The notes under the pieces are model-generated. The model saw nothing but the letters and a program-made list of their open reading frames with translations, made no database searches and had not been told where the DNA came from. Shown in pieces: positions 7,713-59,686 of a stretch of DNA of 64,000 bases. Numbering within the stretch: the stretch's first letter is position 1; every line of letters begins with the position of its first letter. Location of the stretch: positions 1 to 64,000 of the forward strand of contig JAKKUO010000001.1 of assembly GCA_021890795.1 (NCBI GenBank), given 5' to 3'. A program made the translations under genes and the position numbers. The stretch is from Bacillota bacterium (GTDB taxonomy: Bacteria > Bacillota > Sulfobacillia > Symbiobacteriales > ZC4RG38).

Positions 7713-8490
7713 GTACGACATGGAGGCGATGACCGGCGAGGAGGCCCAGGCCCGGCTGCGGGAGACCGGGATTGCCCTCCTGCCCCTGGGCGCGGTGGAG
7801 ATCCACGGGCCGCATCTCCCCCTGGGGACCGACAACTACATCGCCCGGGCTATGGCCCGAAAGGTGGCGGAGCGGGTCGACGCCGTGGTGCTGCCGACCC
7901 TCGCCTACGGGCAGGTCTGGTCCCTCTACGGCTTTCCGGGCACCCTTTCGGTGGACGACCGGGCCCTGGCGGGGGTGCTGGTCGGCATCGGCCGGAGCCT
8001 GAGGGACCTGGGGGTCCCGATCTTCGCCATCGTGAACGCGCACTTGGGAAATGTCGCCGCGATGAGGGAGGCCGCCCGGGTGCTGGAGTCCGAGGGTGGG
8101 CCTCTCACCTTCTACTTCACCCACCCGGCCCTGGGGGAGGCGGCGGAGCGGGTGCGGGAGTCGCCCCGGTTCCACGGCAGCCTCTTCCACGCCTGCGAGC
8201 TGGAGACCTCGATGATGCTCTACCTGGCGCCGGAGCACGTGGAGATGTCCCGGGCGGTCCGGGAGATCCCCCAGGTGCCGCCGGACTTTGACTTCCGGCC
8301 GGTGCGGTGGCGGGAACTCACCCGTACCGGGGTGATGGGAGACCCCACCCTGGCGACCCCGGAGAAGGGCCGGGTGCTGGTGGAGGCCAGCGTGGACCGG
8401 ATGGTGGCGATCCTCGCCGAGGCCCGCCGGCGGGTGCGGGCCGGGGGCGGCGCCGGGGAAGGGGCAGACGCAGTAGAGAAGAAAGGATGA
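7603..8490 (+). CDS. Creatininase-family amidohydrolase
   Basis: A protein of the creatininase fold, a family of metal-dependent amidohydrolases. The metal and catalytic motifs are LPLGAVEIHGPHLPLGTDN (Glu, His, Asp), IVNAHLGN (a variant of the usual NGHGGN) and HACELETSMML (Glu). Family similarity begins only at about YDMEAMTGEEAQ. The preceding 38 residues are a Gly/Ala/Arg low-complexity stretch made by the repeat spacer. GTG 7603 follows the previous stop by 4 bp. ATG 7720 would give a normal family N-terminus but has no visible ribosome binding site. The substrate is unknown; it is placed between a lactonase-like enzyme and a SIS protein in one operon. Confidence 0.8.
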   Translation: MAGVGDGMAGGRDRGAAGREGLAAGRTGGAAGRCRDPYDMEAMTGEEAQARLRETGIALLPLGAVEIHGPHLPLGTDNYIARAMARKVAERVDAVVLPTLAYGQVWSLYGFPGTLSVDDRALAGVLVGIGRSLRDLGVPIFAIVNAHLGNVAAMREAARVLESEGGPLTFYFTHPALGEAAERVRESPRFHGSLFHACELETSMMLYLAPEHVEMSRAVREIPQVPPDFDFRPVRWRELTRTGVMGDPTLATPEKGRVLVEASVDRMVAILAEARRRVRAGGGAGEGADAVEKKG

Positions 8491-8517
8491 GGGCGACACG
8501 GAAAGGGGAGGCAGCCG

Positions 8518-9252
8518 ATGATCACCGCCTACTTCGACGCGATCCGGAAGCTCCTCGAGGCCGTGGAGCGGGACGAGGCGCAGGCCATGGAGGCCGCAGC
8601 CCAGGCCGTAGCCCGGTGCGTGACCGCCGGCGGCGTGGTCCACGCCTTCGGCTGCGGCCACTCCCACATGCTCTGCGAGGAGATCTTCTACCGGGCCGGG
8701 GGGCTGGCGTGCATCCACCCGATCTTTGACACGGGCCTGATGCTCCACGAAGGGGCCCTCCGGTCCTCGGACCTGGAGCGGACGGTGGGGTACGGGACCG
8801 CCCTCATGAAGCGGGTGGAGATCCGGCCCGGGGAGGTGCTCTTTGTCTTCTCCACCTCCGGCCGCAACCCGGTGCCGGTGGAGGTGGCCCTGGCCGGGAA
8901 GGAGAAGGGGGCCACGGTGGTAGCCATCACCTCCCGGGCCTACTCCGGCAGCCAGCCTTCCCGGCACCCCAGCGGCAAGCGGCTGATGGACGTGGCAGAC
9001 ATCGTCATCGACAACCACGTGCCCCCCGGCGACGCGCTCCTCGCCCTGCCGGGGCTGCCCACCCCCTTCGCCCCCGGCTCCACGGTGGTGGGGGCGGCGA
9101 TTCTCAACGCCGTTCTCGCCCGGGCGGTGGAGCTGATGGCCGAGGCGGGGATGGAGCCGCCGGTCTTCTTCAGCGGCAACCTGGAGGGGACCGACGAGCA
9201 CAACGCCGCCCTGGCGGAGCGGTACCGGCCCCGGGTGCCGGCGCTGCGGTAG
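8518..9252 (+). CDS. SIS-domain sugar-phosphate binding protein (UPF0309-like)
   Basis: A 244-residue protein with one SIS domain, the fold that binds phosphorylated sugars in isomerases. Key features are HAFGCGHSHMLCEEIFYR near residue 45 and LFVFSTSGRNPVPVEVA near 110, the Ser/Thr-rich phosphate-binding loop. It resembles the UPF0309 family, whose members often sit beside phosphotriesterase-like genes and ascorbate-type PTS genes, matching this operon. Probable role: isomerisation or binding of the phosphorylated product. The ATG has AAAGGGGAGG upstream. Its last codons form the start of the 49-bp tandem repeat. Confidence 0.83.
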   Translation: MITAYFDAIRKLLEAVERDEAQAMEAAAQAVARCVTAGGVVHAFGCGHSHMLCEEIFYRAGGLACIHPIFDTGLMLHEGALRSSDLERTVGYGTALMKRVEIRPGEVLFVFSTSGRNPVPVEVALAGKEKGATVVAITSRAYSGSQPSRHPSGKRLMDVADIVIDNHVPPGDALLALPGLPTPFAPGSTVVGAAILNAVLARAVELMAEAGMEPPVFFSGNLEGTDEHNAALAERYRPRVPALR

Positions 9253-9361
9253 GGGCAGGCCCCGGGCGGCAGCCGGCTGCTGGGCGCCGGTGCTGCGGTT
9301 GGGATGGGTCCCTGGGCGGCAATCGGCGCCGGGCGCCGGCGCTGCGGTGGGGTCGGGTCCT
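9237..9361 (+). repeat. 49-bp tandem repeat, about 2.5 copies
   Basis: Units begin GCCGGCGCTGCGGT at 9237, GCCGGTGCTGCGGT at 9286 and GCCGGCGCTGCGGT at 9335, so the period is exactly 49 bp and the copies are imperfect. The first unit includes the last codons and stop of the SIS gene. The array looks like a duplicated gene end plus spacer. Confidence 0.8.
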
Positions 9362-39725: not shown

Positions 39726-40826
39726 TCACCGGACCAGGATGGCCGGCCGGCCGTCCACCAGCGGCCAGTCCGGCACCGCGGTCAGCACCTCGGCGCCCGC
39801 CCCGGTGACCAGGATGGTGTCCTCGCTCTTCACCCCGGTGATGGACGGATTCCAGGCGAAGGCCTGGTTTTCCTCGACCACCTCGGTGCTCGCTGCGGTG
39901 GCCAGGTACTCCCGGGGGGCGTAGCCGATGGCTCCGCCCTGGTGGTGGAGCCGCCACTCCTCGGGATACCCCGCCGCGGCGTAGGCCCGGAGCCCCGCCG
40001 CAAAGACTTCTTTCACGGGGGTCCCCGGCCGGGTGGCCTCGATGAAGGCCCGGTCCACCGCCGCCACCGCGGCCTGCTTCCGCTCCAGTTCCAGCGGCAG
40101 CGGGCCAAAGTGGACCAGCCGGGTCGCCGCCGCGTGGAGCCCCCACTTCTCCGCGACGAGCACCACCATCAGATAGCGCTCCACCGGCCGGGGGGTGGGG
40201 AGGGGGTGGCGGTAGCGCCTGATTCGGTCGTCCCCGGCCACCAGCACCACCGCGGGGGTGATGCCGTCCGCGGCCAGGGCGGCGTGGACTCGGGCCGCCG
40301 CGGCGAGCTCCGACTCGCCGGGCTGGTGGGCCCGGCAGGCCTGGGCCACCGCGGCCCCGGTCCGGGCCCCGAGCCACCGCAGCCTCTCGACTTCCCCGGG
40401 GGTGAGCCGGTAGCGCAGCCGCCCAAGGTCCCGCGCCGGCGGCAGCCAGGGCCACCAGGGCACGTCCGCGGCGGCCCGCCGGCCCTTGAGGATCGACCGG
40501 AGGAGGGGCTCGGGGTCCTGGTCCCAGGGGTGGGCCGCGATCTCCCAGCCCAGGCTCCCGAGCTCCTCTTCCTCCAGCCGCCGGGCTTCGGGAACCCCGG
40601 TGACCGCGATCTTCCGCCCCTCGACAGTGTAAATGAGGGCCGCGGCGCCGCCCTCCTGGGTGGTGACCACCCGGGTCCGGGCCCCGGCGGTGAGCCAGGC
40701 GATGTTCGCCTCCCGGGCGAGCACCACCGCATCCAGCCCGTGCTGCCGGAGGTAGTTCCGGAGCCGGGCCTCTTTCTCCTCCCGCTCGGCGGCCAGCAGC
40801 GCAGCGTCCGGCGAGAAGTCGCCCAT
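39726..40826 (-). CDS. M24-family (Xaa-Pro peptidase/creatinase fold) protein lacking most metal ligands
   Basis: A 366-residue protein with a creatinase-like N-terminal domain (LRNYLRQHGLDAVVLAREAN, ALIYTVEGRKIAV) and a C-terminal pita-bread domain. In M24 peptidases the metal ligands are Asp, Asp, His, Glu, Glu. Here both Asp positions are lost (VVLVAEKWGLHAAATRLV), the His motif reads HHQGGAIGY, and the first Glu is Asn (FAWNPSITG); only SEDTILV keeps its Glu. So it is probably not a metallopeptidase. It could be a metal-independent hydrolase like creatinase, or a binding protein. ATG 40826 follows AAGGAGG and is the last of a series of possible starts in the repeat array. It sits within a glycan-use operon, which is odd. 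Confidence 0.75.
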   Translation of the reverse strand: MGDFSPDAALLAAEREEKEARLRNYLRQHGLDAVVLAREANIAWLTAGARTRVVTTQEGGAAALIYTVEGRKIAVTGVPEARRLEEEELGSLGWEIAAHPWDQDPEPLLRSILKGRRAAADVPWWPWLPPARDLGRLRYRLTPGEVERLRWLGARTGAAVAQACRAHQPGESELAAAARVHAALAADGITPAVVLVAGDDRIRRYRHPLPTPRPVERYLMVVLVAEKWGLHAAATRLVHFGPLPLELERKQAAVAAVDRAFIEATRPGTPVKEVFAAGLRAYAAAGYPEEWRLHHQGGAIGYAPREYLATAASTEVVEENQAFAWNPSITGVKSEDTILVTGAGAEVLTAVPDWPLVDGRPAILVR

Positions 40827-40980
40827 GACGCTCCTCCTTCCATACCGGTCTCCGTGCATGTCGGCCTCCTTCCGCAGGCCTCTTTTCACGCCGGTTCCTT
40901 CCACGCAGGTCTCCTTTCACGCCGGTCTCCGTCCACGCCGGTCTCGTTTCACGCCGGTTCCTTCCACGTCGTTGCCGTCA
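40824..40980 (-). repeat. ~16-bp tandem array of ribosome-binding-site plus start-codon units
   Basis: On the minus strand start codons occur at 40967, 40952, 40936, 40920, 40904, 40889, 40859, 40843 and 40826 (GTG six times, then ATG three times), spaced 15, 16, 16, 16, 15, 30, 16 and 17 bases. Between them are purine-rich segments such as GTGAAAGGAGACCTGC and GTGGACGGAGACCGGC. The array begins at the stop codon of the GH43 gene (40980-40978) and ends at the true start of the M24-like gene. Confidence 0.85.
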
Positions 40981-42879
40981 CCGGTCCGCCTGGCCCTGCC
41001 CCGAGCCGCCGCCTGGCTTGCCGGACGGCGCGGCCGCCGGGCCGATGCCCGTGCGCTCGAACCGGAGGACGCTGGCCTCCCCCGCGAGGGCCACCGGGCC
41101 GCAGCGTCCGGGGCCCAGGGCCGCTTCCGGCAGGTTCCGGAGCCGCCAGAAGGTCCCGTCCAGGTAGACCGCCAGGCTCCGCCCGGTCTTGACGGCCCGC
41201 AGGTGGTGGACCGCGCCGGGATCCCAGTCCAGGGGTAGGGGGTCGTACTGCCAGTCCGGGGTGCCGCTGGCGTCCTGGACCACGGTGGCCAGGTACCACC
41301 GGTCCTGCCGGCGCTGGAGGAGCGCCAAGGCCTCCGGGCCGCCGCCCTGCTCGGTCGACACCGGCCGCCAGGCGCAGAGGCCGGCGACGGCGCCGGGGCC
41401 CGCCAGCCGCAGTTCCATCTGCACCTCGTAGTCCGGCAGGGCCGTCCCCAGGAGGCGGCAGGCGGGTCCGTCGTCGGAGGCCGCCAGGTAGAGGGGATCG
41501 GAAAGGCGCAGGTGGGCGGTGACGGTGATGCCCGCGAACAGGGTGCACCCGCCCCGGCTGACCAGCGCCCACGGGCCGGGGAGGGGCCCGGGCAGCGGGA
41601 ACCGTCCAAGGAGCCGGCGGTCCAGCCAGACCTCTGCGCCGCCCGCCTGGATGTGGAGCAAGAGCTGATGGAAGGCGTCCTTCCGGAACCCCGCGGGGAG
41701 CGGGCAGGTAAAGCCGGTGCCCGTGGGGCCGGTCAGTTCCCCCCGCCGGTAGTCCACCAGGACCTCCACCCCCGGGGCCAGGGCCACCCCGGCCTGGGCG
41801 GTGTCGCTCTCCTGGGCGCAGAGGTTCACCTCGACCAGGGCCTCCGGGGGAAGCGGGGCCGGGAGGGGGTGGGTGCTGGCCACGGCGATGGGCCCCAGCT
41901 CCCGGAGCCAGGGCTGCCGGGGGAGCTCCGCCGGCCCCAGGGTGGGCCCCTCGATGTAGAGCCGGTCCCCGTGCCAGTGGATCCGGTCCAGGCACATCCG
42001 CCGGCCGGTCCGGTCAGGCTGCCAGGCGTGGTAGCAGCAGTACAGCTCCACGTTGTCCGGCCCTGGGGCTACCGAGTTGTGTCCCGGACCGAAAAGGAGG
42101 GGGCTGCGGGTCCGGAGGACCTTGCCGGGCTCCGTCTCCCCCGGCGGCACCCACGGGGTCCAGGGACCCAGGGGATGGTCGGCCACGGCGTAGCCGAGGC
42201 CGTAGTTGGCCCGGCCGTAATTGCCGCCGCTGTAAAGCTGGTAGTAGCGCCGGCCCCGGCGCAGGACGCAGGGCCCCTCGACGGTGTACCAGTCCACGCC
42301 GCCCTTCTCCGCCCGGGCCCGCATGAACTCCTGCCACTCGGCGCAGGGCCGGGTGACCTCCCGGGGGTCACCGGCCAGGGTGAAGGGGTCCACCAGCCGG
42401 TCCACCACGTTGCCGGAGCCGATGCGCTCCCCGTTCCAGAACTCGACGGTGTAGAAAAGGTAGAGGCTCCCGTCCTCGTCCTGGAAGGGGTGGGGGTCGA
42501 TGGCCCAGGGATGCCGGGAACCGGTCAGGTCCACCCCGGCATCCCGGTATGGCCCCGCCGGGTGGTGGCTTGTGGCGACCCGGATGTGATGGTCCCGGCC
42601 AAAGGCGACCACCGCGTAATAGAGGTAGAAGGTGCCGTTGAGGTAGATCACCTCTGGCGCCCAGTAGTCCCGGGCGGCCGGATCGGCGAGGGGCTCCAGG
42701 GCCCCGCCGAGGGGCGTCCAGTGGACCAGGTCCGTGGAGTGCAGCACCGGGAAGATCCGGCCGTCGGGGGCCGGGCCGGTGGCAAAGGCGTAGTACGCGC
42801 CGTTCCACTTGAGGAGAAACGGGTCCGCCATGGGAACCGGGTGGACGGGGTTGCAGCGAGTGCCGGAAAACCCTTCCAC
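40978..42879 (-). CDS. Glycoside hydrolase family 43 enzyme with C-terminal beta domains
   Basis: A 633-residue enzyme. The five-bladed beta-propeller has the three GH43 acids: base Asp in PMADPFLLKW (D19), D128 in AIDPHPFQDEDG and acid Glu in YTVEGPCVL (E201). GH43 enzymes are mainly arabinofuranosidases, xylosidases or arabinanases. Residues from about 330 onwards form beta-sandwich domains that likely bind sugar. No signal peptide. The GTG start follows GGAGG by seven bases. An operator-like palindrome lies just upstream, and the ROK repressor gene is next. The C-terminal tail is Gly/Pro/Ala-rich and merges into the repeat array. Confidence 0.88.
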   Translation of the reverse strand: MEGFSGTRCNPVHPVPMADPFLLKWNGAYYAFATGPAPDGRIFPVLHSTDLVHWTPLGGALEPLADPAARDYWAPEVIYLNGTFYLYYAVVAFGRDHHIRVATSHHPAGPYRDAGVDLTGSRHPWAIDPHPFQDEDGSLYLFYTVEFWNGERIGSGNVVDRLVDPFTLAGDPREVTRPCAEWQEFMRARAEKGGVDWYTVEGPCVLRRGRRYYQLYSGGNYGRANYGLGYAVADHPLGPWTPWVPPGETEPGKVLRTRSPLLFGPGHNSVAPGPDNVELYCCYHAWQPDRTGRRMCLDRIHWHGDRLYIEGPTLGPAELPRQPWLRELGPIAVASTHPLPAPLPPEALVEVNLCAQESDTAQAGVALAPGVEVLVDYRRGELTGPTGTGFTCPLPAGFRKDAFHQLLLHIQAGGAEVWLDRRLLGRFPLPGPLPGPWALVSRGGCTLFAGITVTAHLRLSDPLYLAASDDGPACRLLGTALPDYEVQMELRLAGPGAVAGLCAWRPVSTEQGGGPEALALLQRRQDRWYLATVVQDASGTPDWQYDPLPLDWDPGAVHHLRAVKTGRSLAVYLDGTFWRLRNLPEAALGPGRCGPVALAGEASVLRFERTGIGPAAAPSGKPGGGSGQGQADR

Positions 42880-59007: not shown

Positions 59008-59592
59008 TTGAACGCCGTCTGGCTGGTGCTGATCCTGATGGGCGTTGCCGTCGCGGGGGCCCGGGGCGAGGTGGGGGCCGTGACCGAGGCGGCCACCGCC
59101 GCCGCGGAAGGGGCGATCGAGACCGCCTTCCACCTGGCCGGGGTGATGGCCCTGTGGCTGGGGTTGGCCCGGGTGGCGGAGGAGGCCGGGATGATGCAGG
59201 GGCTGGCCCGGCTCTTGGGGCCCCTCACCCGGCGGCTCTTCCCCAGCGTGCCCCGGGATCACCCGGCCCTGGGCTCCATGGCGATGAATCTGAGCGCCAA
59301 CCTCCTGGGCCTCGGCAACGCGGCCACTCCTCTGGGGCTGAAGGCCATGCAGGACCTGCAGAGCCTCAACCGGGGCGATCCCCAGACCGCCACCCCGGCG
59401 ATGATCACCTTCCTGGTCCTCAACACCTCCTCCGTCACCCTGATTCCCGGAACCCTCATCGCCCTCCGGGCCGCCCACGGGAGTGCCAATCCCGGGGCCA
59501 TCGTCGTGCCGAGCCTGGTGGCCACCCTTCTCTCCGCGGCCGCAGGGCTGGCCACCGATGCCCTTTGCCGGCGGCTCTGGGGCCGGGAGTAG
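59008..59592 (+). CDS. spmA: Spore maturation protein A
   Basis: A 194-residue membrane protein needed, with SpmB, for full dehydration of the spore core in Bacillus. It has the nucleoside-recognition (Gate) fold with helices such as LAGVMALWLGLARVAEEAG, and the conserved MNLSANLLGLGNAATPLGLKAMQ. The TTG start is the best fit to the family N-terminus, although GGAGG is only one base away from it. The gene's last codons begin the 36-bp repeat. It strongly suggests an endospore-forming host. Confidence 0.92.
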   Translation: MNAVWLVLILMGVAVAGARGEVGAVTEAATAAAEGAIETAFHLAGVMALWLGLARVAEEAGMMQGLARLLGPLTRRLFPSVPRDHPALGSMAMNLSANLLGLGNAATPLGLKAMQDLQSLNRGDPQTATPAMITFLVLNTSSVTLIPGTLIALRAAHGSANPGAIVVPSLVATLLSAAAGLATDALCRRLWGRE

Positions 59593-59686
59593 CCGCGGGC
59601 AGGTCGGCGGCTCCGGGACCGGGAGTAGCCTGTGGCGGGTTGGCGGCTCTGGTGCCGGGAGCGACCGCCGGCGGGCCGGCCCTGCC
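59585..59686 (+). repeat. 36-bp tandem repeat between spmA and spmB
   Basis: Units start GGGAGTAGCC at 59585 and 59621 and GGGAGCGACC at 59657, so the period is 36 bp, with the third copy partial. The first unit holds the spmA stop codon (59590-59592). Confidence 0.8.

Follow-up and report, generated by a model that had tools for sequence, protein, structure and literature searches.

Tandem repeats at bacterial gene junctions

The closest known kind of element to the repeat described here is the ordinary intergenic minisatellite, or VNTR locus. Mycobacterial interspersed repetitive units (MIRUs) are dispersed elements. A review describes them as repeats coupled to genes with a spacing of -4 nt (PMC12548453). 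In Beggiatoaceae and some cyanobacteria, direct repeats of TAACTGA lie upstream of many start codons in 169 sets, without Shine-Dalgarno (SD) character, and a translational role has been suggested for them (PMC4679880). A search of open-access papers found none on tandem Shine-Dalgarno arrays.

A tandem array at the GH43-M24 junction

The array studied here is located in the window, the whole stretch of 64,000 nucleotides. It lies in a co-oriented run encoding a ROK regulator, a GH43 glycoside hydrolase, an M24-like peptidase, and GH1, with sugar ABC-transporter genes adjoining. The features of the junction are as follows.

39726..40826, minus strand: M24/creatinase-like metallopeptidase gene (PF00557, PF01321); the start in homologues corresponds to ATG 40826
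40824..40841, minus strand: M24-like ribosome-binding site (RBS) GAAGGAGGAG and ATG, resembling the array units (p 0.0065 vs random genomic stretches)
40834..40968, minus strand: tandem array, unit of ~16 bp with consensus GTGRAAGGAGACCGGC; higher-order period of 32 bp (GTGGAAGGA.. / GTGAAA.GAG..)
40857..40859, minus strand: ATG in the M24 frame with the strong SD AAGGAGG; 11 extra residues
40860..40873, minus strand: degenerate unit without a start codon, GGAAGGAGGCCGAC, which has lost the TG of the start
40978..42879, minus strand: GH43 glycoside hydrolase gene, upstream of M24; 151 nt separate its TGA from the M24 ATG

On the minus strand, the array runs from 40968 to 40834 and is far beyond chance expectation. 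Tandem Repeats Finder assigned it a period of 16 (8.7 copies, score 130), while a period of 32 scored better (4.3 copies, score 151) because units of the GTGGAAGGA type and of the GTGAAA type alternate. The aligned units read GTG-RAA-GGAG-ACCGGC. Identity between units was 0.79-0.80 at lags of 2 and 4 compared to 0.71-0.72 at lags of 1, 3, and 5, and the longest exact repeat inside the array, the 22-bp sequence CGTGGAAGGAACCGGCGTGAAA, occurs in two copies 63 bp apart that carry the same one-base deletion. Taken together, the stronger 32-bp period, the spacing of the 22-bp repeat, and the higher identity at even lags indicate that whole blocks were duplicated. Repeats can be misassembled; however, the copies differ from each other and a 22-bp exact repeat is resolvable by ordinary reads, so that an assembly artefact is hardly credible.

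At its downstream end the array meets the RBS of the M24 gene. The alignment of the last unit with this RBS was better than that of 99.3% of random stretches, and the M24 RBS and ATG at 40824..40841 are therefore probably themselves the last array unit. The GH43 stop codon was also considered as a unit zero and rejected, as its match to the unit was not significant (p 0.27).

Start codons, reading frames, and Shine-Dalgarno pairing

The original prediction described the region as a minisatellite whose unit consists of an RBS and a start codon, with nine minus-strand starts, each preceded by an SD-like segment and with successive starts in different frames. All nine start codons (GTG at 40967, 40952, 40936, 40920, 40904, and 40889; ATG at 40859, 40843, and 40826) were confirmed in the sequence. 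The single 30-base step in this ladder is due to the unit at 40873-40860, in whose start codon the TG has been lost. The tandem structure and the RBS-like unit thus stand, with the qualification that one unit is without a start and most have weak SDs. The frames vary less than was predicted: 40936, 40920, and 40843 are displaced from the M24 frame, whereas the other six of the nine (40967, 40952, 40904, 40889, 40859, and 40826) share it.

Only four of the nine starts (40904, 40889, 40859, and 40826) are both in frame and open into the M24 gene; the first three of them would add 26, 21, and 11 N-terminal residues, respectively. GTG 40967, which is positioned 10 nt past the GH43 stop, opens an ORF of 16 codons whose end overlaps GTG 40920 (GTGA); the reading from 40952 stops at the same TGA. 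Likewise, the ORF from 40936 ends at a TGA overlapping GTG 40889 (GTGA), which is in frame with M24. The remaining two starts open out-of-frame ORFs across the M24 gene, with 412 codons from 40920 and 224 codons from 40843.

To score SD strength, the 14 bases 5' of each start were paired with the tail of 16S rRNA, assuming the universal tail. Only two starts, 40859 and 40826, paired strongly (-12.3 kcal/mol, a value that 0.9% of random RTG sites attain); pairing at 40904 was moderate (-9.0 kcal/mol, attained by 7%). The values for the remaining six, -3.0 to -6.6 kcal/mol, were equalled or bettered by 18-59% of random RTG sites. For comparison, the medians were -10.4 kcal/mol for the called genes of the contig and -3.5 kcal/mol for random RTG sites. 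An SD-like segment before each start therefore holds only loosely, and the ATG at 40859 is the only credible alternative start of M24. Among the eight alignable units, a number that affords little power, the SD and start columns were as variable as the spacer, in which a CC is invariant; the start columns are retained in 7/8. Across the array the units are ~25% diverged, yet the start codon is intact in nearly every copy.

The array in relatives

In the one congener compared, the metagenome-assembled genome (MAG) ZC4RG38, the gene order GH43, M24, GH1 is the same, the gap between GH43 and M24 is 17 nt with a normal RBS, and the array is absent. It is also absent from a relative with 66% identity (a Symbiobacteriaceae MAG), where a different gene lies upstream of M24. 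The original prediction named as its refutation a spacer shared by relatives in which the distance from SD to start is not conserved; in the two relatives compared, the array as a whole is missing. When 154 genomes of the class were searched with a three-unit pattern, no further genome proved to have the array; two isolated matches were chance-like, the reversed control pattern also matching two genomes. Within its own genome there is no second good copy, the best match elsewhere being 86% over 36 bases. Derivation of the array from the short junction of the congener was considered and rejected, since the best match there (GGAGACYTGC, 9/10) is one that 25% of other 40-mers equal or exceed. Sequence identity between the two genomes is uneven, with 99% at the DNA level at window positions 8000-9254 and ~87% at the protein level at the M24 gene (39726-42879 locus), a pattern that suggests recombination or transfer.

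Absence from the congener bears on all three roles initially proposed for the array. As a ribosome-loading platform or as a source of short peptides it finds no support, as the SD and start columns lack extra conservation and two of the starts open the 412- and 224-codon out-of-frame ORFs over M24. The third role was a phase-variable switch, in which a change in copy number would turn translation on and off or tune it. Tandem structure and block duplications do suggest instability. However, it is the downstream end of the repeats that holds the true M24 start with its strong SD. A change in copy number further upstream would thus leave both frame and RBS of M24 intact, and the ~25% divergence of the copies lowers slippage. 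We consider such a switch very improbable.

Repeat background and chance expectation

To estimate how unusual such an array is, intergenic tandem arrays (period 10-70, TRF score of 60 or more) were counted on one contig of 261 kb and in samples of other genomes. The contig holds 21 of them, or 8 per 100 kb, compared to 4 in 260 kb (1.5 per 100 kb) in another genome of the family with the same G+C. The congener is also array-rich, with 12 in the ~66 kb of its short contigs that could be read; genes are called less well on these. At a further array in the window, 59569-59680, the contigs of the congener break near the array. Arrays of this kind appear to come and go in the genus, as judged by these comparisons. 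Another intergenic array of the window, at 9224-9360 (49 bp x 2.8), occupies a gap of 173 nt here compared to 4 nt in the congener, with an upstream flank that is 99% identical.

A random 16-mer, when tandemly repeated, carries a properly spaced SD and RTG with a frequency of 2% if drawn from the genome, 4.6% if drawn from codirectional gaps, and 17% if drawn from around gene starts. With about 20 arrays in one contig and a chance of 17% near gene starts, one SD-start array is unsurprising. Genome-wide, SD-start doublets displayed no excess (16 matches compared to 15 for the reversed control pattern). Among all codirectional gaps of the contig, the array nevertheless has the most SD and start matches. 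Elsewhere in the same genome, a near-exact two-copy duplication of a 16-bp RBS and GTG was also observed 5' of a gene for a small membrane protein (L060:2140-2168; G000 contig C14); the congener keeps this duplication.

An RNA element was considered and rejected, as Rfam gave no match and the folding of the array is ordinary (z -0.92 vs shuffles). The same folding result argues against a purine-rich standby site or spacer that would keep the junction unstructured or bound by a protein (ribosomal protein S1 or similar), since the array folds at least as strongly as its shuffles. The sense strand of the array is indeed purine-rich, as are those of two 16-bp arrays at operon junctions of another genome (see below), but the other intergenic arrays of the contig are mostly without purine-rich, SD-like composition. 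We regard this role as very unlikely.

Parallel arrays in another Bacillota genome

Two 16-bp arrays were found in G488, a genome of another class of Bacillota. Between the PPTase and AMP-ligase genes (L121:9915-10108, contig C5) lies a 12-copy array that is unrelated in sequence to that of the window, has RTG in every unit, and includes several starts that open ORFs of 13 codons. About 5 kb away on the same contig (L121:15228-15520), an 18-copy purine-rich array is located 5' of an ABC-transporter gene. The two are mutually unrelated and lie with purine-rich sense strands at operon junctions. The 18-copy array is almost without RTG, which suggests that start codons in such arrays are incidental. 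Both junctions belong to one NRPS/siderophore-like cluster, and a third array (L121:2535-2677) lies within the same 20 kb; most other sampled stretches of G488 have few tandem arrays. In a search of 399 Bacillota genomes, three-unit ladders occurred without excess: the pattern matched 9 places in 7 genomes, whereas its mirror-image control gave 13 matches in 10 genomes, with one genus contributing four of these. This speaks against a general function. In the class of G488, the pattern matched 6 places in 5/83 genomes, none of which resembles a start ladder except that of G488 itself.

These ORF patterns could be read as a relay of termination and reinitiation, in which ribosomes that have left GH43 would resume at the nearby GTG and cross the 151-nt gap to M24 by way of mini-ORFs, each closing in a GTGA at a later unit; a period indivisible by three would keep the mini-ORFs short. 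The position of GTG 40967 and its 16-codon ORF, the GTGA handover from 40936 to the M24 frame at 40889, the 13-codon ORFs of the unrelated G488 array, and the gene-coupled spacing reviewed for MIRUs are all consistent with this relay. However, the chain from 40920 enters the 412-codon ORF and that from 40843 the 224-codon ORF, and both would be in competition with M24. In addition, the SDs are for the most part weak, the neighboring G488 array is almost devoid of RTG, and the array is not conserved in the congener. The relay is accordingly very unlikely. In its broader form, stop-RBS-start junctions would have been tandemly amplified more than once in Bacillota operons, independently and with periods that are not multiples of three (the window array and the G488 ladder), and would serve as self-terminating relays by which ribosomes reinitiate their way over a long gap; this is less likely still. 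If the relay existed, it would be a simple system, provided by nature, in which to study how ribosomes reinitiate between genes that lie far apart.

Origin of the array

The most probable explanation, to which we assign a probability of roughly 0.8, is that the array is an ordinary species-specific intergenic minisatellite that arose by a tandem expansion taking in the downstream RBS and start and that has little if any dedicated function. A local tandem duplication at the GH43-M24 junction of this sugar-utilisation operon, by replication slippage or unequal recombination, would have included the RBS and start codon of M24, which would explain why each copy bears an RBS/start-like sequence. 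Later rounds would then have duplicated blocks of 32 bp and ~63 bp. The RBS and start codon are the probable seed, with the reservation that neither the GH43 stop edge nor the congener junction matches the unit significantly. M24 is most likely translated from ATG 40826, which has a strong SD of its own. The copies upstream of it are probably tolerated because this stretch is rich in purines and lacks special structure; at most they may contribute minor initiation, chiefly at 40859, which would extend the N terminus by the 11 residues MHGDRYGRRSV. Any tandem repeat that grows from an RBS automatically yields a regular ladder of start sites, and the regularity of the ladder alone is therefore no evidence of a translational function. 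Against a plain minisatellite count the highest number of SD and start matches, the intact starts despite ~25% divergence, the G488 ladder, and the C14 duplication kept in the congener. Functional readings of the array find no support but retain a small probability.

Comparison with known repeat systems

Like TAACTGA repeats, the array is a short-period tandem repeat just 5' of a start codon. It differs in sequence, as inspection of the array revealed no TAACTGA heptamer, in its SD-like character, and in being a single array rather than 169 sets. With MIRUs it shares the intergenic position, the orientation along the operon, and starts overlapping stops (GTGA). In contrast to MIRUs, its unit is 16 bp, there is no family in other genomes and no sign of mobility, and the genome search revealed no dispersed homologous copies, only the 86% match over 36 bases. 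In addition, no repeat ORF overlaps the start of the downstream gene: the GTGA overlaps occur between units only, and there is none at the M24 ATG. The array most closely resembles bacterial intergenic minisatellites and VNTR loci, with which it shares short head-to-tail units, diverged copies, higher-order blocks and common indels as signs of repeated duplication, and presence or absence between close species, the array being present here and absent from the congener. It differs from them in that its unit happens to contain an RBS-like segment and a start codon.
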